The position numbers were made by a program, and so were the translations under genes. The notes under the pieces were generated by a model. It had not been told where the DNA came from and made no database searches. It saw only the letters and a program-made list of their open reading frames with translations. DNA of 37,534 bases, taken from Companilactobacillus kedongensis. GTDB taxonomy: Bacteria; Bacillota; Bacilli; Lactobacillales; Lactobacillaceae. Shown piece after piece: positions 3,608 through 25,262 of this stretch; within the stretch, counting starts at the first letter, position 1, and the number at the start of each line of letters is the position of its first letter. The stretch lies in the NCBI RefSeq assembly GCF_003946625.1, contig NZ_RHOR01000020.1, positions 1-37,534 on the forward strand, given 5' to 3'.

Positions 3608-3789
3608 AGTCGGAAGAGATGGAAAATATTTACTGGCAGTGACAGTGGCGTTAGGACGAGTGATTTTCTCGTTCTTACACCACCGGGCGAGTTTAAAGAC
3701 TTGCGAAGCGAGGCTTCAAACCGAGGTTCCAGACCAAGGCTGGAACCGTTCCGCACAGACAGAAAAATATTTTCCATCTCTGGAGACGA
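3608..3789 (+). ncRNA. Dispersed structured RNA-like element, copy A
   Basis: About 182 nt, starting AGTCGGA and ending GGAGACGA. Four nested helices can be drawn. P1 is a long closing stem: AGAGATGG and AAATATTT near the 5' end pair with AAATATTT and CCATCTCT near the 3' end, and a GGA/GGA internal loop separates this from an outer GTC/GAC clamp. P2 is 3650-3660 with 3668-3678. P3 is 3691-3704 with 3708-3721. P4 is 3725-3732 with 3740-3747, loop ACCAAGG. Copies B and C share this architecture with different stem sequences. G-T pairs in P2 and P3 favour the plus strand as the RNA strand. It lies antisense in the 3' region of the 3801-5561 gene. I cannot match it to a named RNA family. Confidence 0.72.
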
Positions 3790-3800
3790 AATATTACTTA

Positions 3801-5561
3801 CTACAGATTTTTATTAGTTATACCCTTATCAACAATGACAGTTTTCCCATCTAAATAACCAGAAAAACTAATCTCATCACCATTTTGAATAAACATATTA
3901 CGTGGATAATTCTTGATCGAAGCATAGAAAACATTCTTATTGTCATTCAGCAAGAAGGCGACTTCACTATTATTTACTTTGACCACACGGTTGACTGTTC
4001 CACTGAAATTCTGTTTCTTTCCAGAATGTGATGAACTAGCCGTATCAGTATTGGAATTAAACAAATTACGATACTTTTGAAGAGCAGATTTGGCGTCAGT
4101 TCCAACTGCAACAGTATCTTGAGTTCCATTACCATTAGCTAAAAGATAAACGTAAGACATGAAAGCCCCATTATCATCAATCATTGAAACAACCCAAGTA
4201 GGCTTCCCGTCAATTCGATACAACAGTGGCATATTAGCTTTCCACTGTGTCTGCTTCATACGATTCTCGGCCAAACTGTCAGCTCGGTTAGGCGTCATAG
4301 CATCAGCTTCTTCACGATAATAATAAGTCTTACCTGTTTTAGCATTGACATACATGTAACCTAACACTGAAGTTTGCTTACTGTTGTTACTTGTCATTGA
4401 GGTGAAGTAATAGATGTCATTCTTATAAGCAATCGGTGTAAAGACATCATCACGTCCCTCTGTTCCGACTTTTTCAACAGACTTCATAACTCCTAGTCTT
4501 GAACCACCGAATCCATGAGCATTCCACCAACCATTTCTTTCAGCGGCATACGAATAGATTTTGTCACTGGCAATATTAGGATCAAAGGTAACATCGATCC
4601 ATTTAGGTTCGTCACCTTGTTTATAAACTTTTACCTTACCAGTAACTGAATCCAAAACAGCCACATAGATCTTACGATAATTCTTTCGTGTTGAAAGTCC
4701 ATATTGTTTATATAACGTTTGAACATAATATGGATGGCCGGACTCATTGATTTCAAGTTGTGGTGCACTTCCTGAAAGAACTAATCCTCTTCCTGTGATC
4801 GATGCATATATTTTACGCGATGCGTCATGACCAAAATAGGCTGATGGAGTATATCTCATACTTTTCTTAACGAATTTCGGTTTAGAATTCTTTGACGTAG
4901 CGTCAACTATGAAATACCCCGGAACTTTCTTGTAATGATTATATCTGAAAAATGATCCATCAAAATCTAGTGGTGCAATATAAACTAATTTACCGTGATA
5001 AAACTGTACTCGGGCGTGATTCAATGAGTAGACATTAGAATCTGGCACATTTGATAATGAGTTCTGCATTTGATTACGGACAGTTTTGTACGAGTTAACA
5101 ACTGGTACTTCTTTACTCTTTGAATTGATCAAAGGCATTGGTGCATTTTTAGTAGTTGTATTTTCGGTTACATCAGTTATCTTTGCGACCGACTTAGTAG
5201 TTGCATATCCGGATGCAATGATCACTAAAATAACAATTCCCAAGGCGACCAGTGAACCAACCATCGTTAATAGAAAATTGCTCTCTATCTTCTTTAATTC
5301 ACGTTTAGATATTGCTAAAACGGCGCCATGTAATCCTGACGCTATGGCCAAAACTACTAGATTAGCTTGTAAGATCATCTTCCAAGTTTGGTCTGGTCCT
5401 GTAAAGTAAACCATAAATAATCCTATTAAAAATATTGCCACTTGAATGAAAATATGCGTCTGAATCCCCAGTTTATGCGGATTTCTTAATAACGCTATTA
5501 CGAATGGCACAAAAGAAAATGCCGTAAATTCAAGTGTTAGTAACAGAAAAAGTCCTAACAT
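3801..5561 (-). CDS. Membrane protein with large extracellular domain and OB-like tail, unknown function
   Basis: 586 aa; I do not recognise the family. Four hydrophobic segments occupy roughly residues 1-25, 35-55, 65-85 and 100-122. A long hydrophilic region, probably extracytoplasmic, follows (about 125-505). It is rich in Tyr and Lys and has several segments like YVNAKTGKTYYYREEAD that suggest a repeated beta-rich fold. A Ser-rich linker near 510 precedes about 70 residues with an alternating beta pattern and GDEISFSGYLDGK, reminiscent of an OB fold; this is inference. Its ATG overlaps the stop of the upstream gene by one base (TAATG), so the two are translationally coupled. No catalytic motif was seen. 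Confidence 0.8.
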   Translation of the reverse strand: MLGLFLLLTLEFTAFSFVPFVIALLRNPHKLGIQTHIFIQVAIFLIGLFMVYFTGPDQTWKMILQANLVVLAIASGLHGAVLAISKRELKKIESNFLLTMVGSLVALGIVILVIIASGYATTKSVAKITDVTENTTTKNAPMPLINSKSKEVPVVNSYKTVRNQMQNSLSNVPDSNVYSLNHARVQFYHGKLVYIAPLDFDGSFFRYNHYKKVPGYFIVDATSKNSKPKFVKKSMRYTPSAYFGHDASRKIYASITGRGLVLSGSAPQLEINESGHPYYVQTLYKQYGLSTRKNYRKIYVAVLDSVTGKVKVYKQGDEPKWIDVTFDPNIASDKIYSYAAERNGWWNAHGFGGSRLGVMKSVEKVGTEGRDDVFTPIAYKNDIYYFTSMTSNNSKQTSVLGYMYVNAKTGKTYYYREEADAMTPNRADSLAENRMKQTQWKANMPLLYRIDGKPTWVVSMIDDNGAFMSYVYLLANGNGTQDTVAVGTDAKSALQKYRNLFNSNTDTASSSHSGKKQNFSGTVNRVVKVNNSEVAFLLNDNKNVFYASIKNYPRNMFIQNGDEISFSGYLDGKTVIVDKGITNKNL

Positions 5562-6061
5562 TAGTTGTTCCCTCCATACTCTTTATAGTAACTTTCAAAT
5601 AATTGAGATACTTTTTTCTTATCAGCATCTGTCGCCTGTTGAACATTGATTATAAAGTCCCCACCAAAGCTTTTATTCAATTTTTGTAATATTTTATTAA
5701 CAGAATTTTTATCTTTTACACTGATAAAAATCATCGAAACATCTAAATAGTCATCAAAACTATAGCTTTTTATATTGTCCCAACTGATCCATTTACGTCC
5801 TGCAAACAGCGTAGAACAATCATATACACCTTTAGGACCGATCTTCATAATACAAGGTGAAAAACTTTTAAAAATTAAAAAAGGCCAAACAGATCCAAAA
5901 AATATAATTGCAAACCACCAAATAATAGAAAACTCCGGTTCATCCTGAAGAAAAAAGACACTACCTCCAACTAAAAATCCTTCCCCCAACGTTGCTAAAA
6001 GTATAAATGAAATTCTCGAACCATTTATTTTATAGACCTCATTCACTTTAAATTCCCCCAT
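5561..6061 (-). CDS. Small membrane protein with two TM segments, unknown function
   Basis: 166 aa with two hydrophobic segments near residues 15-37 and 45-65, then a soluble domain of about 90 residues. The layout resembles bacterial PH-like/YcxB-type small membrane proteins, but I cannot assign a family. An upstream in-frame ATG at 6109 lies inside the oleate hydratase terminator hairpin, so I place the start at the ATG at 6061 (MGEFKVNEV). The ribosome binding site there is weak. A TATACT sequence just upstream, after the terminator T-run, could be a -10 element. The stop overlaps the start of the next gene by one base, so the two are probably made together. Confidence 0.72.
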   Translation of the reverse strand: MGEFKVNEVYKINGSRISFILLATLGEGFLVGGSVFFLQDEPEFSIIWWFAIIFFGSVWPFLIFKSFSPCIMKIGPKGVYDCSTLFAGRKWISWDNIKSYSFDDYLDVSMIFISVKDKNSVNKILQKLNKSFGGDFIINVQQATDADKKKVSQLFESYYKEYGGNN

Positions 6062-6088
6062 GATAATTTCAATATGGTCTAAGTATAG

Positions 6089-6125
6089 CAAAAAAGAAGC
6101 TGAATCCATTAGGATCCAACTTCTT
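6089..6125 (-). terminator. Intrinsic terminator of oleate hydratase
   Basis: Read on minus, AAGAAGTTGGATCC pairs with GGATTCAGCTTCTT around a TAAT loop (6112-6125 with 6094-6107, one G-T pair) and runs into a T stretch. The upstream candidate start of the next gene falls inside it. Confidence 0.88.
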
Positions 6126-6142
6126 TATCTATTAATTAAGTT

Positions 6143-7819
6143 TTATCTAAACATTGTCTTAGTTGCTCTAGCCATAACTTTGGGATCTTTCTCATAATGA
6201 TGCATCTTCGTCATTTCTGATAATGGGATGCCTAAGAATGTATAGACGGCTCTTTGAGCAGCACGGAATGAATATTGTTCTGTAAAGACCATATCAAATG
6301 GCATTTCACAGAATTGGCTGATAAAGGCCAAGTTCTTACTATGCTTTGGCACAACGTCAGGTCTGTCACCGACAGCTCTCTGGTTGAACAATGCACTGGC
6401 ATATGGCAAGTGAACTGGGATCACATTGACAATACTGTCCATGACTTCCTGTTTATGGTTTCTAATATTGTCTTTTGATGGATCAACAGCTGCTAAATGA
6501 CCCAAGAATTCTTCAAGCATTTCTTCACCAGTCATCTCAATGATTGGTTTTTGTACATAGTCACCATTTCTTCTTGGATACATAAAGTAACCCCAGAAAA
6601 CTGATTCATTAGGCTTTTGAGCTTTGAAATGTGGCTGATGATGTACAACGATCGACATCAATGGTGTACTTTCGATCCAAGTGTTCAAAGCATTACCTGG
6701 TTCTTGTTCAGTAATACGGCAAATTTCATTTAATAAGTAATGATTGTTTGTTGTAACAGTAAAGCTCATCCACTCACTTTGTGTACGATCATTAAAGAAT
6801 TTATCAGGATTACCTAGTGAATAAAATTTTTCGGCGGCTTTTTTCCAAAGAGCGGCACTTGGAGCATATTCCATATTTTCTTTAACCGGTGTATTGAAAT
6901 CCCCCATTGATGAACTATCGGTAACTGAGCCATTAGTATCAAAGACTAAATCATTCTCATAAACTGTAATTTCACCGGTTTCATTATCGTTGTCAACTTG
7001 TTCATATTTAATACCAGTAACAACAATGTCATCTTGCAATGGAGTGTCCTTAAATTCAAGATCAACTACTTTACGATTGTTGATAAAAGTTACTCCTCTA
7101 TCCTCAAGATACTTGCGCATTGGCAAAATGATACTTTCATACTGATTATATGGTGTTCTAGTAACACCTTCCAAAGTGTTGATACGACTGAATTCAAGAA
7201 TCATTCGATTCATATAACGACGTAATTCCATAGCTGAACTAGCGCGTTTAAAAGCAAATGTTGTCTGCCACATTGACCAAAAATTAGTCGTAAAGAAGTG
7301 TGGACTGCTAGCAAAGTATTCAGCAATGCTGACGTTATTTAATTTTTCTTCATCTTTTTCCGGAGAAAGCATTAATTTTGAAAGCAAGAAACGATCTTTG
7401 TTGTTAAATTGCATGTGTCTGTAATCATTCTTGTCGCCATGGATTCTTGGTCCATTGTGGTCGATCAAACGTCCAACATCATGTGTTGGATGGGCATGAT
7501 CAAAGTTTAGAATATCATCAGTTACGGTTTGTCCAGGATTATCCAGTGAAGGAACTGATCTTAAAAGATCCCAAAGGTTTTCGTATGTCTCTTCATTGAG
7601 CATCCGTCCACCTTTAGCTAGGAAACCTTTATTATTCGAAAGTGCTTGATTACTATACTCATTCTCATAGGCCTCAACGGTGTCACCATCATTTGCACCA
7701 TGCTTTTCAAGACCCATCATGGTAATTTGTTCACCTTTGAATCCACCATCACGGATCAAATAAATTCCAGCAGCAAGATTACCAATTCCGGTACCGATCA
7801 TATAAGCTTTTCGTGTCAT
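6143..7819 (-). CDS. ohyA: Oleate hydratase (myosin-cross-reactive antigen family)
   Basis: FAD-dependent enzyme that adds water to the cis-9 double bond of unsaturated fatty acids, giving 10-hydroxy fatty acids. It is common in lactobacilli, where it detoxifies host or food fatty acids. At 558 aa it is in the family range. The N-terminal dinucleotide motif reads IGTGIGNLAAGIYLIRDGG. Family-typical stretches include NDGDTVEAYENEY and the C-terminal QFCEMPFDMVFTEQYSFR. An in-frame ATG at 7834 precedes GGAGGG. That sequence is itself a good Shine-Dalgarno 8 nt before the ATG at 7819, so the protein starts MTRKAYMIG. It is monocistronic, with its own terminator. Confidence 0.95.
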   Translation of the reverse strand: MTRKAYMIGTGIGNLAAGIYLIRDGGFKGEQITMMGLEKHGANDGDTVEAYENEYSNQALSNNKGFLAKGGRMLNEETYENLWDLLRSVPSLDNPGQTVTDDILNFDHAHPTHDVGRLIDHNGPRIHGDKNDYRHMQFNNKDRFLLSKLMLSPEKDEEKLNNVSIAEYFASSPHFFTTNFWSMWQTTFAFKRASSAMELRRYMNRMILEFSRINTLEGVTRTPYNQYESIILPMRKYLEDRGVTFINNRKVVDLEFKDTPLQDDIVVTGIKYEQVDNDNETGEITVYENDLVFDTNGSVTDSSSMGDFNTPVKENMEYAPSAALWKKAAEKFYSLGNPDKFFNDRTQSEWMSFTVTTNNHYLLNEICRITEQEPGNALNTWIESTPLMSIVVHHQPHFKAQKPNESVFWGYFMYPRRNGDYVQKPIIEMTGEEMLEEFLGHLAAVDPSKDNIRNHKQEVMDSIVNVIPVHLPYASALFNQRAVGDRPDVVPKHSKNLAFISQFCEMPFDMVFTEQYSFRAAQRAVYTFLGIPLSEMTKMHHYEKDPKVMARATKTMFR

Positions 7820-7940
7820 AATATTGCCCTCCATTCTAATACTCGACTTAAATATATTCCATTTATAGAGTCAATGTAAAGGTTTACACTCACTAAATTT
7901 TAAAACATAAAAGTCCTAAAATTTAATTCTGAAATTTGAC

Positions 7941-7972
7941 AAAAAAAGAGACACTTGCATCTGCAAGGTCTC
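7941..7972 (-). terminator. Intrinsic terminator after ackA
   Basis: A stem with GAGAC/GTCTC at its base and TTGCA/TGCAA at its top (7948-7972) is followed on minus by T7. It closes the comG-methyltransferase-ackA transcription unit. Confidence 0.88.
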
Positions 7973-7981
7973 CTACTTTAA

Positions 7982-9169
7982 TTATTTTGTTAATCTAACA
8001 ACATCACGAACGATCATCAATTCCTCATCCGTTGGAATTGCTAAGACTGTAACACTTGAATCATCTGTACTGATCTTACGCAAACCTTTTCCATTTTCGT
8101 TAGCATTTTTATCGATCTTAATACCCATGTAAGCAAATTTTTCTGAGATAATTTGACGAATCCATGGATTAGCAAAGCCCATTCCGGCTGTAAAGATAAT
8201 TACATCTGTACCACCAAGTAAAGCCATGTATGAACCAACATACTTAACGATACGATTTACAAAGATATCGATTGCTAATTTTGAACGTTTGTTTTCATCT
8301 TTAGTAGCGATCAAATCACGCATATCTGGTGAAACGCCTGAAATACCAAGGAGTCCAGACTTTTCATTTAAGATATTGATCATATCTTGTGGATCAGTGA
8401 TTTTTAATTTTTGCATCAAGTAAGCCATCAATGATGGGTCAATATCACCTGAACGTGTACTCATCGTGATACCAGCTAAAGGTGTGAATCCCATTGATGT
8501 ATCAACAGATTTTCCACCGTCAATAGCATCGATCGAAGCACCGCTACCCAAGTGAAGTGAGATCATCTTCAAATCTTTTAGTGGTTTGTCCAAGAATTTA
8601 GCTGCGGCACCAGAAACATATCTGTGACTTGTACCATGTGCACCAAATTTACGTACACCATATTTTTCATAGTATTCATAAGGAACACTGTATAGGTAAT
8701 TTACTGGATCCATTGATTGATGGAATGAAGTATCAAATACGGCTACTTGAGGAACATCTGGTAAAATTTTCTCAAATGCTTCCATACCAGCAGCTTGGCC
8801 AGGATTATGTAATGGTGCAAATTCTGCCAATTTTTTGATTTGTTCGATAACTTCTGGAGTTACTACTGTAGAATCTTTAAAGACAGAACCACCAGCAACA
8901 ACACGGTGACCAACACCAGTGATCTCACTGTAATCAGAAATGATATTCATTTCGATAAGTTTCTTTAACATCTTGTTAACAGCAGTTATATGATCAGGAA
9001 TATCGCCAGTTTCACTAAATTTCTCGCCATTGTACTTTACTTCAAAGACAGAGTCTGACAAACCTAGACGGTCAACCATACCTTTAGCAACAACAGTTTC
9101 TTCTGGTAAATCATACAGCTTCCACTTCAGGGTTGAACTTCCTGAGTTAACTGCAATTATTTTGGACAT
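7982..9169 (-). CDS. ackA: Acetate kinase
   Basis: Interconverts acetyl phosphate plus ADP with acetate plus ATP, the substrate-level phosphorylation step of heterofermentative and pyruvate metabolism. At 395 aa it has full length. The sequence shows the N-terminal phosphate motif NSGSSTLKWKLYDL, LHNPGQAAG, FDTSFHQSMDP with the catalytic Asp, HGTSHRYVS, HLGSGAS and the substrate-binding STRSGDIDPSL. It sits 10 bp after the YtxK-like methyltransferase at the tail of the comG cluster. This order is conserved in several Firmicutes, so it is probably partly co-transcribed. The partner enzyme Pta is encoded at 34048-35016. Confidence 0.97.
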   Translation of the reverse strand: MSKIIAVNSGSSTLKWKLYDLPEETVVAKGMVDRLGLSDSVFEVKYNGEKFSETGDIPDHITAVNKMLKKLIEMNIISDYSEITGVGHRVVAGGSVFKDSTVVTPEVIEQIKKLAEFAPLHNPGQAAGMEAFEKILPDVPQVAVFDTSFHQSMDPVNYLYSVPYEYYEKYGVRKFGAHGTSHRYVSGAAAKFLDKPLKDLKMISLHLGSGASIDAIDGGKSVDTSMGFTPLAGITMSTRSGDIDPSLMAYLMQKLKITDPQDMINILNEKSGLLGISGVSPDMRDLIATKDENKRSKLAIDIFVNRIVKYVGSYMALLGGTDVIIFTAGMGFANPWIRQIISEKFAYMGIKIDKNANENGKGLRKISTDDSSVTVLAIPTDEELMIVRDVVRLTK

Positions 9170-9179
9170 ATCTTTTCAC

Positions 9180-10181
9180 CTAACCTTTAAAAGTTTTTTT
9201 GGCCCAATCCTGAACTTGATTTTTAAAGCCTTCAAATAGCTTCGGATCATTTGTATTCGGAATAGTACCCATTAAAACCTTAGCAGATTGTTGAGCTTTT
9301 GTACCATGTTTTTGTAAGATTACTACAGCTTTTTGTGCTTCCTTTGAAGCAAACAAATTACCCGGCAAGTCTAGAACCGCCTGTAAATAGACGTTTGAGA
9401 CCATCCATTGTGATAATTTTTTGGCTTGGTCTGTTTGGAAAATTTGTGAAGGAACGATAAAGATTCCGATACCGTTTTCATTTAAATTGTTCATTGTCTG
9501 TTCAATAAGTAGATGATGAGCATATGAATGGCCCTTATCGGCTCTAGTTTCAAATTTGGAGGCGTTTTCATCTATTGGGTAATATCCAACTGGAAGATCG
9601 GCAATCGCCATGTCAACGTCCGTAAACTCCCATTCAGCGATTCCATCTTGATGATAAGCTGATAGATTCAGATTCATGACCTCAGTAAAGGCTTTAGCCA
9701 ATCCTAAAGAAATATCATCATTGTCTATTCCAGCCAAATTGATCTTAAAGTCACCGGCCATCTTTAATTGATTTACAAATTCAATCAATAAATTACCTGT
9801 CCCGATCGTAGGATCAACTAGATTGAAGTCTTTCTTATTCTGAGCACTCAGAATTTCATAAGCAATCAGACTAGTGATCAATCCAATAGTATCTGGAGTT
9901 ACTAATTTATTAACTTCAGTTTTATCTAATTTTTGAGAACTAATAATATTGACCGTGATAGCTTGTTTTAGTTCAGCTCTCGATATATCAATTTCTTTTA
10001 GTTCGTCATAAATTACTTTTAACTTGTCCACAGTATCTTGATCTGGGGCACCATTTTCTACGTAAACCTCACCATTAGCTAAATCAGTTAGTGCCTCAGC
10101 TAATGCGTCAGTATAGCTTGTCTTTAGCGCCTTTTGTAACAAAGTAACAGCTTGACTTAATTTATCGTAATAAGTTTGCAT
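9180..10181 (-). CDS. Class I SAM-dependent methyltransferase, YtxK-like
   Basis: 333 aa and related to N6-adenine methylases, but lying in the comG-ackA context typical of YtxK. It is probably not part of a restriction system. Residues up to about 100 form a helical N-terminal domain. SAM motif I is VDPTIGTGNLLIEF. The usual NPPY catalytic motif is replaced by ADLPVGYYP, so methylation of DNA adenine is uncertain. A longer open frame begins at 10244, but the Shine-Dalgarno CTGGAG lies just before the ATG at 10181 (MQTYYDKL), which I take as the start. It is followed 10 bp later by ackA. Confidence 0.88.
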   Translation of the reverse strand: MQTYYDKLSQAVTLLQKALKTSYTDALAEALTDLANGEVYVENGAPDQDTVDKLKVIYDELKEIDISRAELKQAITVNIISSQKLDKTEVNKLVTPDTIGLITSLIAYEILSAQNKKDFNLVDPTIGTGNLLIEFVNQLKMAGDFKINLAGIDNDDISLGLAKAFTEVMNLNLSAYHQDGIAEWEFTDVDMAIADLPVGYYPIDENASKFETRADKGHSYAHHLLIEQTMNNLNENGIGIFIVPSQIFQTDQAKKLSQWMVSNVYLQAVLDLPGNLFASKEAQKAVVILQKHGTKAQQSAKVLMGTIPNTNDPKLFEGFKNQVQDWAKKTFKG

Positions 10182-10220
10182 TTTTATCTCCAGTTCTTTT
10201 AAAAATAACATTAATATTCT

Positions 10221-10237
10221 AATGTTGCGGCAACATT
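10221..10237. repeat. Perfect 8-bp inverted repeat between comGG and the methyltransferase gene
   Basis: AATGTTGC, one G, then GCAACATT, lying at the comGG stop codon. The absence of a directly adjacent T-run argues against a strong terminator. It could be an RNA processing or stabilising hairpin, or an attenuator, separating late com genes from the housekeeping genes downstream. Function is inference. Confidence 0.5.
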
Positions 10238-10458
10238 TATTCAACCATGTTATATTCCGAGAACCTTATTGTATCTGTTTTATCAACCTTTTGCACAATC
10301 TTTTGTTTATAAAAATTATCTAGCCGCTGATAATTATGAATCTGATTTTTAAAATAGGCATTACCGAAGCCGATAGTCATAATAGAAACACCCAAAACTA
10401 ACAAGGTTGTTAATAGAACTGAAGCCGGACTATTTCTAGTTAAGATTTTGTTGATCAT
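10237..10458 (-). CDS. comGG: ComGG-like minor pseudopilin
   Basis: 73 aa with one hydrophobic helix near residues 12-32, then a short Lys/Gln-rich tail. It has little sequence identity to named proteins. The ComGG call rests on position as last gene of the comG operon, size and topology. The ATG lies inside the end of comGF (23-bp overlap). It would be a minor subunit of the competence pseudopilus. Confidence 0.7.
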   Translation of the reverse strand: MINKILTRNSPASVLLTTLLVLGVSIMTIGFGNAYFKNQIHNYQRLDNFYKQKIVQKVDKTDTIRFSEYNMVE

Positions 10459-10873
10459 TAGTTAAATACATCTCCGAAACTCGATTTTTCTTGTCTGTCA
10501 TCCTGATAATTATCAAATCTTTTTTAACTTTGAACGTACAGTTATTTAGATTCATCACTAATGGAACGTGTCCACCTTGTTCTGTTCTGGTTCGTAGCAT
10601 ATCTTTATAAAATTCCAAGACATGAGAAGATCCAGAACCATCACTACTATAGAAACTCACTCTGGTTGGTTTCGATGTCTTTATTTTTTCGTCTCCAAAA
10701 TTTTCTTGAATATATTCATTAGTCATATGCCAACGAACTTGTTCAGCATTCAAATTATCCGGAACGTTTTTGATAATTTTCAAAGTTTGTTGCAAAACTC
10801 CCAATACCATAATGGTAACCAACAATGCTATTAAGGTTTCCGCTAATACCATGCCAGAGCGTCTACCATTCAA
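10436..10873 (-). CDS. comGF: ComGF competence pseudopilin
   Basis: 145 aa with a type IV pilin-like N-terminus (GMVLAETLIALLVTIMV): a prepilin-type G-M/F-x4-E arrangement with E following the hydrophobic start. The soluble part resembles ComGF. The start is TTG at 10873, with a Shine-Dalgarno GAGGTG about 7 nt upstream. The next ATG is inside the prepilin motif, so TTG is the likely start. It overlaps comGE and comGG and is part of the envelope-spanning DNA-uptake pseudopilus. Confidence 0.8.
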   Translation of the reverse strand: MNGRRSGMVLAETLIALLVTIMVLGVLQQTLKIIKNVPDNLNAEQVRWHMTNEYIQENFGDEKIKTSKPTRVSFYSSDGSGSSHVLEFYKDMLRTRTEQGGHVPLVMNLNNCTFKVKKDLIIIRMTDKKNRVSEMYLTNDQQNLN

Positions 10874-11141
10874 CTTTAAACACCTCTTTATTAGATTGGA
10901 CTTTCAAGGAGTTTTCATTCTTATCAAAGAAATATTTTTGATTTTTCACAGTCTGTTCAGAAACTGTTTGATTGCTATTAAGGTTTATCAGCATCAATTT
11001 GTGAGCATTGATTCTCTGTTCCCAAAGACTTATTTGCTTATATTCTTCTCCTAGACAAATTGTTAAGGTAGTTGCGACTAACAATGTAATAAACAAAGAA
11101 ACAACTGATTCTGCAAGAACAAAACCATCACGTTTTATCAA
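10863..11141 (-). CDS. comGE: ComGE-like minor pseudopilin
   Basis: 92 aa with the prepilin-like N-terminus RDGFVLAESVVSLFITLL and a short C-terminal region. Annotated as ComGE by order and size. The start codon is TTG at 11141, with GGGGTG 6 nt upstream inside the end of comGD, so translation is coupled. Minor subunit of the competence pseudopilus. Confidence 0.72.
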   Translation of the reverse strand: MIKRDGFVLAESVVSLFITLLVATTLTICLGEEYKQISLWEQRINAHKLMLINLNSNQTVSEQTVKNQKYFFDKNENSLKVQSNKEVFKVEW

Positions 11142-15636: not shown

Positions 15637-15646
15637 TGGCTGTGAA

Positions 15647-16169: not shown

Positions 16170-16176
16170 TAAAGAT

Positions 16177-16219: not shown

Positions 16220-16221
16220 GT

Positions 16222-16255
16222 AAAAAAAAGACCATAGACAAAATTGTCTATGGTC
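16222..16255 (-). terminator. Intrinsic terminator of the yebC-family gene
   Basis: A perfect 11-bp stem (16230-16240 with 16245-16255) is followed on minus by T8. It is back-to-back with the plus-strand terminator. Confidence 0.92.
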
Positions 16256-16268
16256 GAAAGTTTATTTA

Positions 16269-17003: not shown

Positions 17004-17099
17004 TTCTGCTTCCTTCTTCCACTTTTATTGTAAACCAGGTAACATAATATCAAAATATGCCCGTCATTTCAATATTAACCGGTAATTAATAAAGTGAAA

Positions 17100-20000
17100 T
17101 CAGCGATTATTTTTACGACGTTTAATGTCAATTCCTACTAATGACAACAATCCTAGTAAAATACCACTGATTGTAGCCATCAGACCACTTTTATTTCCAG
17201 TTTGAGGGAATCTGCCTTTAGTTGCTTCAGAATTTGTTTGAAGACTCTTATTAGCAGAAACCGTTGCATTGGATGTAGCAAGTAAGCTCTTTGTTACTGG
17301 ACTCTGCCCTGTAGCACCCTTAGAACTGAGATATGTTACTGAATTTTTACCACTATATTCACTGCCGCTATTAACGACTGGAGTTTCTGGTACAACTGGA
17401 GTAGTTGGTTTAGGTGATCCTGGATTTGTTGGAGTTTCAGGGTTAGTTGGTACTTCTGGAGTAGTTGGTGTTCCTGGTTCTTCTGGATTTGTCGGTGTTT
17501 CAGGGTTAGTTGGTGCTTCTGGTTCTTCCGGATTTTCAGGTTCCTCTGGATTTGTTGGTTTCTCTGGTTCTTCTGGACCATTCTCATTACCTTGATCTCC
17601 AGAATCTCCTGGTTCAGTTGGACCTGTGCTACCGCCAGAATTATTGTCTTCTGTTCCGCCAGTTACATGCAGAGTAACATTTTTAGTCATACCGTCAGCT
17701 GTACTCAAAGTTACAGTATAATCGCCATTCTTAGTTAAATCGGCACCATTTAAGTTCAATGAAATATCACTCAGTGGAAGTGGACCATTCAAATCATAAG
17801 CAAAGGCTTTAAAGTCATCTAATGTTGGAGCAGGATCACCAACCTTCATTGTGTAATCTTCACCATTGATACCAGTGATCGTAAATGTTCCTGGTACTAC
17901 TGTGATCGTGTAATTTGGATTTGCATCTTCATTTGGTGTAACAGTTATTGGATAAGTACCCACGGTCTCACCTGGATCACGAGAGACTGTATATTCAGCA
18001 TCAGTTACTCCATTAGAAACTTGTCCTGTTAAAGCAGGATCGGTTTCACCAGAAGTTTTGGCAGCATTTACAGCAGTAATAGTTATTGGAAGTTTTTCGA
18101 TCACATAACTAGATGTGTTGGTCCCTGGTTCCCAATCGTACAAATCACTATCTGGTAATGCATTAATTGCAGCTAAACCTTGAGATGTTAATTGAACTTG
18201 GTAAGTTCCGGCATCAATTGCTGGTGTAACAAATTCTACGTCGCCTGGTTTAGTTGTATAAGTAGTCCCATTTGAAAGTGTTACTTCATAACTGCCGGTT
18301 TCTGCCGGTGTACTACCACTATAAACACTGGTGTTACTGCCGCTTATTGCATATGTCCCAGCATTCTTTTGAACACTAACGTCGACAGTCGTACTGTACT
18401 CACCATAGCTATATGTAACTTTATAAGTCCCCGGTGTCTTTGTATCGACTGATGAAACGGTCTGTCCAGCTGGATCTTCAATTGAAACTGTCATGCTGGA
18501 TAATGGAACGACAGTACCATCTTCAAGTGTACATCCCACAAAGTTATCTTCTGGAGACCAATTAGATCCGAGGATAACCATTGAATCAATTGCTTTAATA
18601 GCAGGGTTATTTAAGACAACATTATATTGACCGTTATATTCTGGTCCGATGCTCCAATTAAATGCGAAATTCTCTGTTCCGGTAGGTATATTAAAGACAC
18701 CATTTGAATATGTAACGCCACTAGTCAATCCAAAAATTCCTAAGTACTGTTCATTAAATCCATCAGCGTTGATGTTAAAGAAGTCTGAGATCTTATCATG
18801 TGTTGGATCGGTAAAAATAGTATCAACTTGATAGCCACCGATACCTGATCCGAACGAACCAGAAATACTTACGTTAGGCGCGTCAATATTAACGATTCGA
18901 TTATATTTGAAGACTTCGTTTCCTAAAGAAAGATTACTGCCTGAATAACTTAATCCCGTCAATTGATCACTTAAGAATGCTTGATCACCAACCGAAGTTA
19001 CACTAGCAGGAACGGTCAAATCTCCTGAAACCTTATCATATTCAAAGGCTCCAGCACCAATAGTTTGAAGGTCGGCCGAATTAGTAAGATCAAGAGTCGT
19101 TAAATTATTGTCGTAAACAAAGGCTTGATAACCTATCGAGGTCAAAGTTTTATCAAAGGTTACACTTTTAAGATCAGTATTAGAGGCAAAGGCCTGATCC
19201 GAAATAGTTTGTAAACTATCTGGCAATGTCAAAGTTATTAAGTCCGGATTATAAGCAAAGGCCTCCTTACCAATTGAAGTAACCGAATTTGGCAAAACAA
19301 GAGAGGTTATCGGATCAGATACAAAAGCATCATCGCCGATCGTTTGTAAAGTTGTATTTTTAGAGAAATCAACTGTTGATAATTTACTATTGTAGGCAAA
19401 GGCAGATTGACCGATACTCTCTAAGCCATCATTTAAGATAACGTTAGCCAAACTTTCATTGCTATAAAACGCCTCCTTACCAATAGTTGTTAGACCATCA
19501 TTTAAGGTTACTGATGTCAAATTGTTATTAAATTGGAAAGCATTATTACCGATTGCGGTTACTTTATAGGTCACACCGTTGAGAGTAATTGTTGGAGGTA
19601 AATTGATTGAAGTAATTGTTGAACTTCCAGTAGCCAATCCTGTTACTGTTGCAGTCCCTGATGTAGAATCCGTTGACCAAGTAAAACTATCCGAAGGTGT
19701 GTATTCAGAGGCACTAGTGGCCGGTGCTGTCGTTGTAGGTGTATTGGTTGTTGCAGTTGTTGTTGGTGCTGTGACCGTCGGTGTTGTTGTCGTTGGAGCA
19801 GTTGTTGGTGCTGTTGGCGTAGTAGTGGTCGTTACTGGAGTTGTTGGTGACAGATCTCCACTAGCAGTTACTCCTCCGCTACTAGTGCCAGTAGTAGACG
19901 TACTTGTACTTGGTAACGTAGAAGTACTAGTTGTAGTTCCTGTTGAAGTGGTTGTTGTCGGAACAGTCGTTGTACCCGTTGTCGGCGTCCCTGTGGCAGT

Positions 20001-20255
20001 AGCTATGTCCGTACTAGTCGACAAGGTCGTCGTTGGAGTAGACGTTGTCGTTGGGGCAGTTGTTGTACCCGTTGTTGGAGTAGCTGTTGTGGACCCAGTT
20101 TCTGGTGTAGTTGCCGTACTTGTACTTGTTTCAGCAGCTTGAGCTAGTACTTGATGTGTCAATGAAGTACCAACGCCCAAAGTAATTGCAGCACTTGCAG
20201 CAATCACAATTTCTTTACCATCTTTAATTAATACATTTTTTTTCATTTTCATCAT
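17100..20255 (-). CDS. Sortase-anchored BspA-type leucine-rich-repeat surface protein
   Basis: About 1050 aa. N-terminal signal region with a KxYKxGKxW-like lead (KKNVLIKDGKEIVIAAS), probably cleaved after VLAQA. A low-complexity Thr/Ser/Pro stretch of about 150 residues follows. Next come ten BspA-type units with an IGxxAF core (such as IGKEAF and IGDDAF), Ig-like beta domains, an MBG-like domain (ITAVNAAKTSGETDP), a Pro-Glu-Asn-Thr wall-spanning region, and the anchor FPQTG, hydrophobic helix, KRRKNNR. The anchor is a variant of LPxTG. The open frame extends to a TTG at 20282. I prefer the ATG at 20255, which follows GTGGG, but other ATGs nearby are possible. Likely role: adhesion or cell-cell contact (family knowledge). 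Confidence 0.88.
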   Translation of the reverse strand: MMKMKKNVLIKDGKEIVIAASAAITLGVGTSLTHQVLAQAAETSTSTATTPETGSTTATPTTGTTTAPTTTSTPTTTLSTSTDIATATGTPTTGTTTVPTTTTSTGTTTSTSTLPSTSTSTTGTSSGGVTASGDLSPTTPVTTTTTPTAPTTAPTTTTPTVTAPTTTATTNTPTTTAPATSASEYTPSDSFTWSTDSTSGTATVTGLATGSSTITSINLPPTITLNGVTYKVTAIGNNAFQFNNNLTSVTLNDGLTTIGKEAFYSNESLANVILNDGLESIGQSAFAYNSKLSTVDFSKNTTLQTIGDDAFVSDPITSLVLPNSVTSIGKEAFAYNPDLITLTLPDSLQTISDQAFASNTDLKSVTFDKTLTSIGYQAFVYDNNLTTLDLTNSADLQTIGAGAFEYDKVSGDLTVPASVTSVGDQAFLSDQLTGLSYSGSNLSLGNEVFKYNRIVNIDAPNVSISGSFGSGIGGYQVDTIFTDPTHDKISDFFNINADGFNEQYLGIFGLTSGVTYSNGVFNIPTGTENFAFNWSIGPEYNGQYNVVLNNPAIKAIDSMVILGSNWSPEDNFVGCTLEDGTVVPLSSMTVSIEDPAGQTVSSVDTKTPGTYKVTYSYGEYSTTVDVSVQKNAGTYAISGSNTSVYSGSTPAETGSYEVTLSNGTTYTTKPGDVEFVTPAIDAGTYQVQLTSQGLAAINALPDSDLYDWEPGTNTSSYVIEKLPITITAVNAAKTSGETDPALTGQVSNGVTDAEYTVSRDPGETVGTYPITVTPNEDANPNYTITVVPGTFTITGINGEDYTMKVGDPAPTLDDFKAFAYDLNGPLPLSDISLNLNGADLTKNGDYTVTLSTADGMTKNVTLHVTGGTEDNNSGGSTGPTEPGDSGDQGNENGPEEPEKPTNPEEPENPEEPEAPTNPETPTNPEEPGTPTTPEVPTNPETPTNPGSPKPTTPVVPETPVVNSGSEYSGKNSVTYLSSKGATGQSPVTKSLLATSNATVSANKSLQTNSEATKGRFPQTGNKSGLMATISGILLGLLSLVGIDIKRRKNNR
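17360..17590. repeat. Imperfect short tandem repeats encoding the Pro-Glu-Thr-Asn wall-spanning region
   Basis: Units coding for variations of TNPETP, EEPE and APTNPE recur. For example, near-identical copies of GTTTCAGGGTTAGTTGGT appear near 17433 and 17496. Such repeats can change in number by slippage and so vary stalk length. Confidence 0.65.
19690..20130. repeat. Low-complexity Thr/Ser/Pro-coding tract
   Basis: Degenerate ACN-rich codons on minus give runs of Thr with Pro, Ser, Ala and Gly. The skewed composition also creates a long valine-rich frame on plus that is not a gene. The tract is likely a glycosylatable stalk (inference). Confidence 0.7.
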
Positions 20256-20293
20256 GAACATCCCACACTTCTGTTTAAACAAATTTTGATTAT

Positions 20294-20321
20294 ATTATAT
20301 AAAGTTTTAAGTTTAAGACAA
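20294..20321 (-). promoter_or_regulatory. Promoter of the BspA-type surface protein
   Basis: On minus, TTGTCT (20316-20321), 16 nt, TATAAT (20294-20299). The -35 abuts the upstream terminator, so the gene is an independent unit. Confidence 0.6.
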
Positions 20322-20323
20322 AC

Positions 20324-20349
20324 AAAAAGACCTCATCTGAGATCTTTTT
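20324..20349. terminator. Intrinsic terminator after the vanZ-like gene
   Basis: AAAAAGA-CTC pairs with GAG-TCTTTTT around ATCT, with one mismatch. It functions on minus for the permease-VanZ unit. Confidence 0.75.
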
Positions 20350-20492
20350 TAAGTGAACCTAATTCATGATAAAAGAACAACGCTCTTTTCTAGCGCTTTA
20401 TTTATATTTTTATAAAATGTAGGATATTAAAACTCCAGCAAACATAGCAATATTTACCTAAAGTTTTTTCGATTTAAATAACGTGCAGAAAA
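20350..20492. other. Short AT-rich gap, no gene seen
   Basis: It contains a possible weak hairpin (AAAGAGC near 20383 with GCTCTTT) and nothing else recognisable. Confidence 0.4.
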
Positions 20493-21011
20493 TCAAGCCT
20501 TCTTGTGTTTAGTCAAAATATAAATAACCAAAAACAATATCAGTCCTGCTAACAAAGCTCCCATACTATCTAAAATAACATCATAAATAGATGGAGTCCT
20601 GCCACCGGTCAGTCCTTGATGAAATTCATCAAAAGCCGCCAATCCAGTGGCAACCATCCAAGGAACAAATACGCTCAGTACCTTGTGAGTCTGAAAGTAA
20701 TTATATAAAGCCAAACTCAAAAATAATCCTAAAATAAAATACGTTCCAAAGTGTGCTCCCTTGCGAATGAAAAACTCCACAAAGTGAAAATAACCATCAT
20801 TTTGAATCGACTGGATCTTACCGCCATAGTTGAAGCTTATTCCACTCAACAAATGATAAAACGGCTTATTATTGGAACCCAAATGACGCTCCAAGAAAGG
20901 AACCGATGTCTGCTGTTTGTAGGTCATCGATGAACTATAAAATAGTATCAATTCGACAACAACAATCGCCCACCAATACCATTTTTCATGCTTTTTAATT
21001 CTATTAATCAC
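20493..21011 (-). CDS. VanZ-family membrane protein
   Basis: 172 aa with four to five hydrophobic segments and the VanZ signature DEFHQGLTGGRTPSIYDVILDS in the second half. VanZ-like proteins are integral membrane proteins. In enterococci VanZ gives low-level teicoplanin resistance, but most homologues have an unknown, cell-envelope-related role. The start is GTG at 21011, with TTGGAG 7 nt upstream, inside the end of the permease gene (8-bp overlap). The two are therefore co-transcribed and probably coupled. Confidence 0.9.
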   Translation of the reverse strand: MINRIKKHEKWYWWAIVVVELILFYSSSMTYKQQTSVPFLERHLGSNNKPFYHLLSGISFNYGGKIQSIQNDGYFHFVEFFIRKGAHFGTYFILGLFLSLALYNYFQTHKVLSVFVPWMVATGLAAFDEFHQGLTGGRTPSIYDVILDSMGALLAGLILFLVIYILTKHKKA

Positions 21012-22605
21012 TGTTTTTCTCCAATTTTACTTTAGAATTCAATTTTCTAGCATCATCAAAATAATCAGTATGATAAGAAGAATGAATTGCCCAATAATAA
21101 ATAGCGGTGGAAAAAGCTAATATCAAAACAAAATCCAATGGATATTTGATCAAATCTATTCCGCCAAAGTTAACGCTACCTAACCAAGATATCAATGATA
21201 ATCCCGTCAAGTGAACGATAAACCACAAACTGGCATACATTTTAGGTTTGAATTCATTGAACCCTCTTTTGAAATCATAAAAGATATAAATTGGTAAACC
21301 GACAATAATAATGACGATCACTTCAACCGTAGTTGGGAACATTGACCAATAAATTGCTAAACTGATCAAATCAAATACGACTGGAGCCAAGATATTCATC
21401 CCTTTAATTTTTGATGGACGCTTAAAGTCCGGACCCATTCTACGTAAGCTGCCAGCGACAACTGGCCCCGTCAATAACGATATTAACGTTGAAGCAGCAA
21501 CGACTCGAGACAGTAATGACCAATTTTTAAATAACGTTATCAGTATCATACTGACAACTAAATTAACCAGCAATGCTATTCTTGGCGAACCAAATTTATT
21601 ATCACTTTTGCCCAATATCTTAGGCAAATGTCTATTCTTAGGCATCGACGACAAAGATTTACTAGCAGAGGCTGAAAAGGCAATTCCACTTCCTAATGGT
21701 GAAATAAAAGCTGTGAAATATATCAAAGTTGATAACCAATAGATATTTAACAGAATTGCTAAATCGGCATATGGTGAATTGAAATTCAGACTCGACCAAC
21801 CTTTAGCCATGATGCTCTGTGGTAGTGAACCGACAAAAACTATTTGTAAAGAAATATAAATCAATGCACTTATCAATAATGAAAGAATGATACCTCGACG
21901 GATATTTCTCTCTGGTTTTACAATATCATTTCCTAAATTAATAACTGTCTGAAATGCTACATATGAATAAATTATTCCAGCACTACCGATCGCCACAAAA
22001 ATTGAGGCCGTGCCATTAGGCATAAACTGCTGCATATTATGTCCCATATTATTTAAATCAAAATGTGCTGTGATCAAGACGATCATCGTGATAACTGGAA
22101 CTACTAATTTAAAAACTGCTATCAAGTTATTAAATTTAGCCATGATCGATACGGACCAATAATTTATAAACGTAAAGACAAATAATAATCCAGTTGCCAT
22201 AAGCATTCCACTCGATGATAATTGACCGTTATCCATGAAGCCATGTGTAAAACTAGCCCATTTCCATGGCCATGTACTCATATATTGTGTTGAGGCAACC
22301 GCCTCTATTGGCAAAATTGCTAGTAATGACAGCCAATTTGCCCACGAAGCAATGTGTCCCAGAAATGATCCATGCGTATACATCGTAAAGCGGCTCATTG
22401 CACCATCTTCAGGAAACATCGTTCCAATTTCAACATAGACCATTGCGATCATTGCTACCAATACAGCCCCGATGATCCAACTTATTATAGCTGCAGGGCC
22501 AGCGATTTTTGCCGCCTGACTCGATCCAAACATCCAACCAGAGCCGATTATTGCGCTTAAACCAAACATCGTCGTTGAAAATAAATTTAATTTTTTATCA
22601 TTCAT
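21004..22605 (-). CDS. APC-superfamily amino acid permease
   Basis: 533 aa with about 12-14 hydrophobic segments. The N-terminal transport motif SAIIGSGWMFGSSQAAKIAGPAA covers TM1, where the backbone binds the amino acid carboxyl group. It belongs to the amino acid/polyamine/organocation secondary transporters; the substrate cannot be told from sequence. ATG with GGTGGG upstream. First gene of a two-gene unit with the VanZ-like gene, and transcription is insulated from glmS by a terminator. Confidence 0.9.
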   Translation of the reverse strand: MNDKKLNLFSTTMFGLSAIIGSGWMFGSSQAAKIAGPAAIISWIIGAVLVAMIAMVYVEIGTMFPEDGAMSRFTMYTHGSFLGHIASWANWLSLLAILPIEAVASTQYMSTWPWKWASFTHGFMDNGQLSSSGMLMATGLLFVFTFINYWSVSIMAKFNNLIAVFKLVVPVITMIVLITAHFDLNNMGHNMQQFMPNGTASIFVAIGSAGIIYSYVAFQTVINLGNDIVKPERNIRRGIILSLLISALIYISLQIVFVGSLPQSIMAKGWSSLNFNSPYADLAILLNIYWLSTLIYFTAFISPLGSGIAFSASASKSLSSMPKNRHLPKILGKSDNKFGSPRIALLVNLVVSMILITLFKNWSLLSRVVAASTLISLLTGPVVAGSLRRMGPDFKRPSKIKGMNILAPVVFDLISLAIYWSMFPTTVEVIVIIIVGLPIYIFYDFKRGFNEFKPKMYASLWFIVHLTGLSLISWLGSVNFGGIDLIKYPLDFVLILAFSTAIYYWAIHSSYHTDYFDDARKLNSKVKLEKNSD

Positions 22606-22625
22606 CCAAACCCACCAATTCGATT

Positions 22626-22653
22626 AAAAAAAAGCCTCTAAAATTAGAGACTT
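22626..22653 (-). terminator. Intrinsic terminator of glmS
   Basis: A 10-bp stem (22632-22641 with 22644-22653, one mismatch) is followed on minus by T8. Confidence 0.88.
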
Positions 22654-22674
22654 TTCTTTATTTAATAATTTATA

Positions 22675-24486
22675 TTACTCTACAGTAACACTCTTAGCAA
22701 GATTTCTTGGTTGGTCAACGTTGTTACCACGGGCCAAACTTGCGTAATATGCGATAAGTTGTGCAGGTACAACACTGACGATTGGTGAGATCATTTCGTC
22801 AATTTCTGGAACTACGACTTGATCACCTTTTTCAGCAAATTTCTTGCTTGCAATAACCAATACATGAGCACCACGAGCAGCAACTTCTTGAATATTACCA
22901 CGTGTATGTGAAGCGCCAATACCATCATTGATGTAAGCAAATACTGGTGTATCCTTTTCGATCAATGAGATAGTACCGTGTTTCAATTCACCTGCAGCAA
23001 ATCCTTCAGAATGAATATATGAAATTTCCTTCAACTTCAAAGCAGCTTCAAGTGAGAGTGCATAATCAATCCCACGTCCGATATAGAAAGCATCTTTCTT
23101 GTCTGTTAAGTAGTCAGCAGCAATTTCTTTGAATTTATCTTTTTCGTCAACAATTGTTTGGATAGCATTAGCGGCAAGTGCTAATTGTTCTTGAAGGTCA
23201 AGGTCTTGAGCAGCTTTAACACCCTTGAATTCACCAATAGCTTTAGCAAGCACAGCTTCAACGGCGATGTTAGCTGTATAAGCCTTTGTTGAAGCAACGG
23301 CAATTTCTGGTCCAGCGAGAAGTTCCATTGTATATGTAGCTTCACGTGAAAGTGTTGAGTTGGCAACATTTGTCATTGTCAAACTGTGGAAGCCGAGTTC
23401 ATTAACTTTTACAAGCACTTGTCTACTATCAGCAGTTTCACCACTTTGTGATAAGAAGATAAAGAATGGTTTCTTAGAAAGTTTTGGCATATGGTAACCA
23501 AATTCACTAGCTAGTTCAACATCAACTGGAACATCAGCTAAGTTTTCAAAAATATCCTTACCAACTAAGGCAGCGTGATAACTTGTACCGGCAGCAACGA
23601 TATATAGACGATCCGCACCAGCAACATCTTTAAGCATAGTTTGATCTACATTGATCTTCTTGCCATCAAAGTAGTTTGATGAGATCTTTCTCATAACGGC
23701 TGGTTGTTCATCGATTTCTTTCAACATGAAAGTATCGTACGTACCCTTTGAAATATCACTAGCATCAAGTTTTACAGTATATGGATCTCTTTGAACGGCT
23801 TTACCGTCAAGAGTACTGATCTCAACACTATTCTTTTTCAAGATAACAACTTCACCATCATGGATCTCAACAAATTTATGTGTACTTTCCAACATGGCCA
23901 TAGCATCTGAACAGATAACATTGAAACCATCACCCAAACCAATAAGTAAAGGACTCTTGTTCTTAGCTACAAAGATACGATCAGGGTTTTCCTTATCAAC
24001 TAAAGCAAAGGCATATGAACCTTCGATCAATGACAGAGCTTTTCTGAAAGCAGCTTCAGTATCCATATTTTCTTTAACTGCAAAATAGTCGATCAATTGA
24101 ACAGCTACTTCAGTATCAGTTTGACTCTTAAATGTTACATCACTTAAGTATTTTTCTTTTAGTTCAGTATAGTTTGTTAGCACACCATTATGTACCAAGT
24201 AGAAACGATTGTCTGCTGAAAAATGAGGATGAGCATTAGCTACTGTTGGTTCACCATGAGTTGCCCAACGAGTATGTCCAATTCCGATAAGTCCTTGTAC
24301 ATCATCTGAAACTTCATTTTCAAGGTCACTGATCTTGCCAACTTCTTTTACAAGATAGTCTTTGCCGTTTTCATTATTTACGTAGATACCGGCTGAATCA
24401 TATCCACGATATTCAAGTTTTTCAAGTCCGCTTAATAAAATTTTAGTTGTGTTTTCATTACCTACAACTCCAACAATTCCACACAT
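22675..24486 (-). CDS. glmS: Glutamine-fructose-6-phosphate aminotransferase
   Basis: Makes glucosamine-6-phosphate from fructose-6-phosphate and glutamine, the committed step to UDP-GlcNAc for peptidoglycan. 603 aa. The N-terminal glutaminase domain begins with Cys2 (MCGIVGVVG) and shows GHTRWATHG and the HNG motif. Two SIS domains follow (AAGTSYHAALVG, FLSQSGETADS, STKAYTANI). The C-terminus ends DQPRNLAKSVTVE, as is typical. Ribosome binding site GAGAGG. It has its own promoter and no recognisable glmS ribozyme in the leader. GlmM, the next enzyme of the pathway, is encoded 823 bp upstream on the same strand. Confidence 0.97.
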   Translation of the reverse strand: MCGIVGVVGNENTTKILLSGLEKLEYRGYDSAGIYVNNENGKDYLVKEVGKISDLENEVSDDVQGLIGIGHTRWATHGEPTVANAHPHFSADNRFYLVHNGVLTNYTELKEKYLSDVTFKSQTDTEVAVQLIDYFAVKENMDTEAAFRKALSLIEGSYAFALVDKENPDRIFVAKNKSPLLIGLGDGFNVICSDAMAMLESTHKFVEIHDGEVVILKKNSVEISTLDGKAVQRDPYTVKLDASDISKGTYDTFMLKEIDEQPAVMRKISSNYFDGKKINVDQTMLKDVAGADRLYIVAAGTSYHAALVGKDIFENLADVPVDVELASEFGYHMPKLSKKPFFIFLSQSGETADSRQVLVKVNELGFHSLTMTNVANSTLSREATYTMELLAGPEIAVASTKAYTANIAVEAVLAKAIGEFKGVKAAQDLDLQEQLALAANAIQTIVDEKDKFKEIAADYLTDKKDAFYIGRGIDYALSLEAALKLKEISYIHSEGFAAGELKHGTISLIEKDTPVFAYINDGIGASHTRGNIQEVAARGAHVLVIASKKFAEKGDQVVVPEIDEMISPIVSVVPAQLIAYYASLARGNNVDQPRNLAKSVTVE

Positions 24487-24575
24487 TGTATAAAACCTCT
24501 CTAAATCGGTATAGTTTTTATTTTTAAAATTGGTCTAGCCTTTTAATCAAGGCGACCTTTTAGATAACAAAGCCT

Positions 24576-24604
24576 AGAATACTAATTTAGATGGATTATG
24601 TCAA
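24576..24604 (-). promoter_or_regulatory. glmS promoter with overlapping inverted repeat
   Basis: On minus, TTGACA (24599-24604), 17 nt, TATTCT (24576-24581). An inverted repeat (TCTAGCCTTT at 24534-24543 with AAAGCCTAGA at 24569-24578, one mismatch) overlaps the -10 and the expected start site near 24569, so a repressor could bind here (inference). Confidence 0.65.
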
Positions 24605-24771
24605 CTATTTTTCGATAATTTGTAAGGTTTTTTAATAAATGGTATATGTATCGTACATTAAAATTGGTATTGGTATAAACCGATTACATTTTTCGTATGT
24701 GATTTTATTTACTTGTTGATTTTTGATTGTAATTGTGAGACTCGCTTTCAGAGATTCTTGGAGTTGGATTG

Positions 24772-24942
24772 CCGCCTCCGGAAGAGAAAAAACTAACCTG
24801 CTGTGGGGAACGTTCTCAGCCAAGGTTTGAGAACTCGATTTTGAGCTTTGTCGCAAATCTCAAAATCGTCCATTCTGTAAGTACGGCTACGCCGTTCTAA
24901 CAGAATCTCCACTGCTGGTCAATTTTCTCTCTTCCTACGGCT
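24772..24942 (-). ncRNA. Dispersed structured RNA-like element, copy C
   Basis: Read on minus it begins AGCCGTAGGAAGAG and ends CTCTTCCGGAGGC. The outer clamp is GCC/GGC (GTC/GAC in A and B). The internal loop is GTA/GGA, and P1 has GGAAGAG with CTCTTCC. P2 has GTTAG/CTTAC with the same central T-T mismatch, topped by ACGGC/GCCGT. P3 uses GATTTTGAG with CTCAAAATC (24859-24867 with 24837-24845). P4 uses GTTCTCA with TGAGAAC (24828-24834 with 24812-24818). It is oriented like glmS, about 290 bp before its start codon, and upstream of the glmS promoter. Confidence 0.7.
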
Positions 24943-25087
24943 ATATTATATTTTTATTTTTAGATCATATATATGTTTTAATCCAATAGCATTCAAATAG
25001 TATCTATAATTAAAATCAAAAATATGTAAGTTAAATATTCAACGGTTATTAATAACTGACTTGCTAAATGTCATAATTCAGAGATCC
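24943..25087. other. AT-rich spacer between structured elements C and B
   Basis: 145 bp that separates the 5' ends of two oppositely oriented copies. If the elements are transcribed on their own, their promoters would be expected here or inside the elements. I see no strong -35/-10 pair. Confidence 0.35.
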
Positions 25088-25262
25088 AGTCGGAGGTCGC
25101 AAGAAATTTTCCTGCAGTGACAGTGGCGTTAGAGTGGCGATCTTCCGCTCTTACCCCACGAACGATTCTGAGATTTGCGTAAGCAAAGCTCAAAATCGAG
25201 ACCTCAGACCTTGGCTGAGGTCGGTTCCACAGCAGGAAAAGTTTCTTGCGACCGGAGACGAC
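25088..25262 (+). ncRNA. Dispersed structured RNA-like element, copy B
   Basis: 175 nt starting AGTCGGA and ending GGAGACGA. Clamp GTC/GAC, internal loop GGA/GGA. P1 is GGTCGCAAGAAA with TTTCTTGCGACC, continued by CCTGC/GCAGG. P2 is 25128-25137 with 25145-25154, including a T-G pair and the conserved T-T mismatch. P3 is 25164-25178 with 25183-25197, with C/A and A/G mismatches at the same places as in copy A. P4 is 25200-25207 with 25215-25222, loop ACCTTGG. It lies antisense, immediately downstream of the glmM terminator. Confidence 0.75.

Follow-up and report, generated by a model that had tools for sequence, protein, structure and literature searches.

EFAR repeats of Enterococcus faecalis are folded, intergenic sequences of about 170 nucleotides (nt) that also occur in longer modular forms and integrate at stem-loops; we assume that they may be the same as the Efa-1 family. 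In the attC sites of integrons the fold is kept rather than the sequence, the folded strand is the one opposite the gene, and the site often lies just past a stop codon. Here we describe a folded element of about 175 nt, the core, which occurs in three copies in a 37,534-nt stretch of Companilactobacillus kedongensis DNA (assembly GCF_003946625.1, contig NZ_RHOR01000020.1, positions 1 to 37,534); this whole stretch is called the window below. The core comes closest in kind to the folded interspersed repeats EFAR, YPAL, BOX/SPRITE and REP/BIME, with which it was compared by description only. EFAR shares with it an occurrence in Lactobacillales, a length of about 170 nt, a fold, an intergenic position, longer modular forms and integration at stem-loops; REP hairpins are much shorter than the core. 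The attC sites resemble it in keeping fold over sequence, in using the strand opposite the gene and in lying near stop codons, but the core is dispersed, lies outside cassette arrays and has three hairpins.

In the accessible part of its description, the Efa-1 family is folded and 163 nt long (PMC2267715). YPAL/RU-2 elements of Yersinia are about 168 bp long, have internal inverted repeats and target sites in or beside dyad symmetry, and in all three respects are like the core, but the accessible part of that account reports neither paired cores nor compensatory evolution for YPAL (PMC2229807). In Streptococcus pneumoniae, BOX, RUP and SPRITE are non-autonomous repeats of intergenic regions that cluster and fold stably, comparable in this to the core as read here; the part of the source at hand makes no mention of large cores in facing pairs (PMC10969869). 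REP, BIME and REPIN elements, as the available sections present them, are high-copy intergenic palindromes in alternating orientations (PMC2817692), and the core is like them in copy number, position and orientation. REP/REPIN elements with their RAYT transposases differ from the present case, in which three genomes rich in copies lack a Y1 transposase match (see below). Size, covariation on one strand and facing pairs set the core apart from the known folded repeats, judged by their descriptions, and no account of it was found in the parts of the published literature covered, most subscription journals being outside that scope.

The element is a high-copy repeat that keeps its pairing and moves. 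Its fold is conserved on one strand, its copy number is high and patchy, its copies lie head to head in several genera, and pairs have been duplicated in a genome of another genus (G199). We consider it probable, if some way from assured, that a small non-autonomous mobile element has the core as its folded end and that a putative trans-acting enzyme recognises this end as a folded single strand. The unit would measure about 400–700 bp and read reverse-complemented core, AT-rich spacer, core; the enzyme, encoded elsewhere, would recognise each end as a folded single strand, either as hairpin or cruciform DNA or as RNA. Recognition of shape would lead selection to retain the fold and the unpaired motifs while the stems turn over. 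In the C. kedongensis genome, too, the pairs would act as units.

The conserved fold and its strand

On the plus strand, the core is built from a closing stem with a GGA/GGA internal loop and three hairpins, P2 to P4. We aligned 23 copies from the C. kedongensis genome (the home genome, G000) by sequence alone, without fitting them to any model; all other alignments were fitted to covariance model R1 and lean towards its structure. Among the 23 copies, 36 of the 58 pairs have changed on both sides and 95.3% of cells pair, compared with 83.4% after column shuffles and 34–41% when partners are slid by 1–3 columns. With controls well below the observed values, the statement of the initial annotation that stems change on both sides together holds. 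The same annotation had named covariation in a larger alignment beforehand as a test. In such a set, 42 copies taken from eight genomes outside the genus, 52 of the 58 pairs are double-changed, although 19 of these copies come from G199 and, being related, are not independent. In this set 92.1% of cells are paired, against 62.6% shuffled and 37–42% slid; the fit to R1 makes the pairing level lean upward, an excess that the slid controls do not have.

Several non-canonical positions are fixed. The U-U mismatch of P2 is kept in 22 of the 23 copies and the A-G mismatch of P3 in 21, as had been proposed, but a second P3 mismatch, C/A, had to be given up, since that position is C/A in three copies and U-A in 19. 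The GGA/GGA loop was likewise described as conserved; this is true of its two outer G-A pairs (23/23), whereas the middle pair varies. Unpaired motifs are conserved as well.

The earlier argument that G-U pairs make sense on one strand only is also upheld. Across 66 home-genome copies read on the proposed strand, there are 136 G-U and 65 A-C cells, with 41 copies having more G-U and 12 having more A-C; in the unfitted alignment of 23 copies the counts are 59 and 24. Because a plus-strand fold served to select the columns, these counts lean slightly towards G-U. At unpaired columns the substitutions (C>T 29/314, G>A 85/822, A>G 40/910, T>C 11/314) show no matching bias, and the G-U excess is therefore not explained by mutation bias. 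By RNA folding energy, the plus strand is the more stable in 45 of 66 home-genome copies, 118 of 136 from C. huachuanensis, 28 of 42 from other genera and 62 of 68 from the genomes G002 and G045. The plus strand is thus supported as the selected one, in the form of a folded single strand. Since the same pattern would be expected from folded single-stranded DNA, covariation does not establish that the molecule is RNA, and strong covariation with wobble pairs is, alone, no proof of an RNA gene.

Pairs, copy number and movement

Closely neighbouring cores stand head to head. In the home genome, neighbours are arranged minus-then-plus in 45 of 45 cases closer than 300 nt and in two of two at 300–1000 nt. 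Among neighbours closer than 600 nt, the head-to-head arrangement is found in 24 of 30 cases in C. huachuanensis, 26 of 29 in G002 and G045 together, 16 of 18 where other genera were sampled and 23 of 24 in G303 (from 142 of its at least 145 matches), a set that overlaps the other-genera sample in part. Inverted pairs of palindromes, as in REP/REPIN elements, are present here.

Duplication of whole pairs is seen in G199. From this genome 20 loci were fetched for having matches, and 16 of them, the reference included, share 682–710 nt with the reference, the 15 others being 80–89% identical to it. Seven of the 16, checked core by core, have 222–224 nt between their cores, and these spacers are 78–87% identical. 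Two further loci, L348 and L364, share a different pair over 651 nt at 92% identity; a third copy of this pair has lost most of its left core, though not the outer end on that side. Since the whole pair, spacer included, is common to 16 of the 20 loci, the pair is the unit there, and in G199 cores and spacer move together, the two folded ends of this unit being different. Around Companilactobacillus, 30 loci of G017 and G020 were compared with the home genome and nine of them read closely. In three empty-site comparisons, judged by eye, the spacer is absent from the empty sequence; a fourth site (L273 against home-genome C35:34968-35175) was set aside, as it concerns a solo copy and the home-genome site holds a possible fragment. 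The most alike cores of G045 (91–95%) mostly have unrelated flanks, with one type sharing a short 3' extension.

Copy number ranges from none detected to at least 150 per species. R1 gives at least 150 non-overlapping matches in the home genome, and 66 distinct copies were collected from a 425-kb sample of it, consisting mainly of contigs picked for holding matches. Matches occur in 29 of 60 genomes, the home genome included, whereas ten genomes of the genus have none under filters that lose weak matches. The covariance-model search of other genomes suggested by the initial annotation covered 295 genomes of the order Lactobacillales, of which 12 match at E 1e-5: two belong to this genus, others to four further genera of its family and four, matching weakly, to three other families. 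Scoring of more candidates yielded at least 145 matches in G303 and 28 in G036. Plasmids gave one partial match, in Limosilactobacillus reuteri, and the phages searched gave none.

Two kinds of enzyme were considered as the present mobiliser and rejected. Y1 transposase (PF01797), found in 23 of the 60 genomes, is absent at E 1e-10 from the copy-rich genomes G000, G002 and G009, and the reverse transcriptase domain RVT_1 is absent from the same three at E 1e-8. Because G002 is a single contig, assembly gaps are an unlikely cause of the missing matches. A version of the element that carries genes was not found among three pairs of facing cores with wide gaps: the 4.2 kb between facing cores in contig C1 of G017 hold open reading frames (ORFs) that look housekeeping-like by eye, and those in C18 and C22 looked unrelated.

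A number of observations weigh against a folded-end mobile unit. No mobilising enzyme is known for the element. Of the 66 copies sampled in the home genome, 22 lack a partner within 400 nt. The two cores of a pair resemble each other no more than random copies do (0.628 versus 0.629), and the partner is the best match in none of 21 cases. The 23 spacers that could be read, out of 47 pairs, share short matches only (the longest being 46 nt), and the outer ends of 17 pairs hold no repeat longer than five bases. As home-genome partners are no more alike than chance and the readable spacers share little, movement as a unit in this genome is deduced from other species. In the AGTTGG subfamily of C. 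huachuanensis, a single core lies inside a miniature inverted-repeat transposable element (MITE) with terminal repeats of its own, so that here one core moves between ends of another kind. The ORFs enclosed by the three widely spaced facing pairs mentioned above looked unrelated to each other. Finally, a role for the host might explain why copies near gene ends are retained.

It is a real possibility, though short of probable, that the element represents an undescribed class of mobile elements across Lactobacillales, with two large folded-strand end modules that are read by shape and a machinery that is neither Y1 transposase nor reverse transcriptase. On the reading of a folded end, the element would represent a mobile repeat whose fold is what is recognised, with strong covariation written in at least 100 copies per genome; these copies would form a natural library from which the features read by the recogniser could be learnt, and would offer a way to the mobilising enzyme.

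Competing explanations and genomic location

The initial annotation opposed selection on an RNA structure to a MITE. This is a false choice: copy numbers run from none detected to at least 150, a C. huachuanensis core sits in a MITE and whole pairs of G199 are duplicated. Of selection on an RNA structure, the folded single strand survives, but this strand may be RNA or DNA; promoter-like sites just upstream of the cores are at chance in four sets. The latter result bears directly on the idea of a structured RNA gene pair, in which two diverging promoters in the spacer would drive outward transcription of the cores, yielding a non-coding RNA that acts in trans or is itself mobile. Diverging transcription would suit the head-to-head layout, and both the fixed non-Watson-Crick pairs and the greater stability of the plus-strand fold in most copies of the four sets are what such genes would have. 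The window spacer holds one weak promoter-like match (25049-25077, plus strand, 9/12) that points at the plus core and leaves 11 nt between its end and that core, although matches of this kind occur in the region at chance frequency. Promoter-like sites ending 3–14 nt before the core were found for 5 of 57 home-genome copies (mean 2.8 on resampling, with the observed number reached 32 times in 200), for 1 of 40 and 0 of 63 in C. huachuanensis and for 2 of 40 in G002/G045, all of these values being at or below chance. Base counts of the 57 home-genome 5' flanks reveal no positioned -10 or -35 element, and some spacers are just 35–45 nt long; a reverse-transcribed RNA is opposed by the missing RVT_1 matches. 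We regard an RNA gene pair as unlikely. An ordinary MITE whose palindromes are held complementary by template switching, without selection on the fold, would account for 27 candidate elements of 250–380 bp with terminal repeats at C. huachuanensis loci, 12 of which have 5–7 bp duplications by eye, and for the preponderance of double over single changes (123 versus 14, of 460 pairs) at sites shared between species. Template switching should, however, erase the fixed U-U, A-G and G-A mismatches, it yields no G-U excess on one strand, and it leaves the conservation of unpaired motifs unaccounted for; we hold this explanation to be very improbable. Loci L147 to L226 of C. huachuanensis include a MITE of about 320 bp with terminal repeats of about 16 bp (ACTRAAGGTTGAAAGG), which carries a core.

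Copies lie between genes, in the home genome mostly just past stop codons and about half of them beside a hairpin, and these positions are what would be expected if a folded insert between stop codon and terminator served the host by insulating convergent genes or shaping mRNA 3' ends. On simple ORF calls, from which all gene contexts were derived, a gene on the opposite strand lies at the 3' side of the core in 42 of 55 home-genome copies, with its stop codon within 20 nt in 31 of these. Strong hairpins, which look like bidirectional terminators, stand on the 5' side of 30 of 57 copies and on the 3' side of one (shuffles, 0), and some sites are filled in two or three species. The favoured strand is, however, opposite to the adjacent mRNA, and the context changes in the best-scoring 20 copies each of G002 and G045, where a gene on the same strand follows 16 and 10 copies, respectively, and 5'-side hairpins number 2 in 40. 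In eight comparisons of shared sites the other species' copy ranks first in two and is never the reciprocal best match, and ten genomes of the genus are without a match under the filters mentioned. A host-useful 3'-end element is, on this evidence, distinctly unlikely. Neither a universal role of terminator hairpins as landing sites nor a rule that places the core in 3' untranslated regions was retained; both fail in G002/G045, and we therefore treat them as lineage-specific effects of landing or survival and not as mechanism. Locus-by-locus vertical descent was likewise rejected: where species share a site, their copies are in most cases not the best match, and we therefore make no claim of compensatory change between orthologues. 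A folded end recognised in trans remains our preferred reading.

The window and neighbouring features

The window is contig C13 of the home genome, a 2.27-Mb draft from the genus Companilactobacillus, family Lactobacillaceae. R1 finds three cores in it, on the strands given by the initial annotation and with ends at most two bases from those it gave; the four copies it mentioned as the basis for a model are reduced to these three. It did not state that two of them, 24773-24942 and 25088-25260, form a head-to-head pair, which we read as one unit (Table 1). The glmM-glmS interval (identities from NCBIfam) of G017 and G020 lacks a stretch corresponding to this pair. The third copy is solo: it lies 12 nt past the stop codon of the minus-strand gene 3801-5561, and the 400 nt searched on its 5' side contain neither a partner nor a fragment.

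Table 1. Positions of the cores, their parts and adjoining hairpins in the window; fold z scores compare each copy with its own shuffles (R1, covariance model)
Feature	Position	Strand	Remarks
Terminator-like hairpin	3534-3584		5' side of solo core
Solo core	3608-3788	+	R1 160.8 bits; fold z -8.9
Head-to-head pair (minus core, 145-nt spacer, plus core)	24773-25260		Between glmM terminator and glmS upstream region
Core, minus end of pair	24773-24942	-	R1 138.8 bits; fold z -9.4
AT-rich spacer between both 5' ends	24943-25087		Weak hairpins only
Core, plus end of pair	25088-25260	+	R1 144.5 bits; fold z -8.2
5' clamp GTC and 5' half of GGA/GGA internal loop	25089-25094	+	3' halves 25257-25259 and 25254-25256
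Hairpin P2	25123-25159	+	Conserved U-U mismatch (GTTA..TTAC); fold and alignment
Hairpin P3	25163-25198	+	Conserved A-G mismatch; fold and alignment
Hairpin P4	25200-25222	+	AGACC..GGCT loop kept; fold and alignment
Intrinsic terminator-like site of glmM	25271-25298	-	Just outside plus end of pair

The initial annotation could not name a family, and comparison with Rfam leaves it so: Rfam 15 has no family at its curated threshold on the window cores or in 20 other loci, and at relaxed settings nothing falls on the cores below E 1 except one overlap with a neighbouring terminator. Group II intron domain V (RF00029) is not found in the cores; a separate match to it (50.2 bits) lies at 37292-37360 on the minus strand, near the contig end. 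This intron may be cut by the assembly or may be without its protein, RVT_1 not being found in the home genome.

Other repeats occur at comparable places. Directly behind the glmM stop codon, loci L135, L133 and L126 (G005, G009 and G015) carry a different folded-looking repeat that starts AGAGTGGAA or AGAGAGCGGAAC. A further repeat, in which a terminator-like hairpin is flanked by long inverted arms on the outside, stands beside the core or replaces it in L273 (near 1720-1960) and at C23:152611-152807 of the home genome. In most of the species of the genus that were compared, the glmM-glmS intergenic region has repeated boxes such as CTATACCA and TAGACCAAT upstream of glmS, which resemble GntR/NagR operators.

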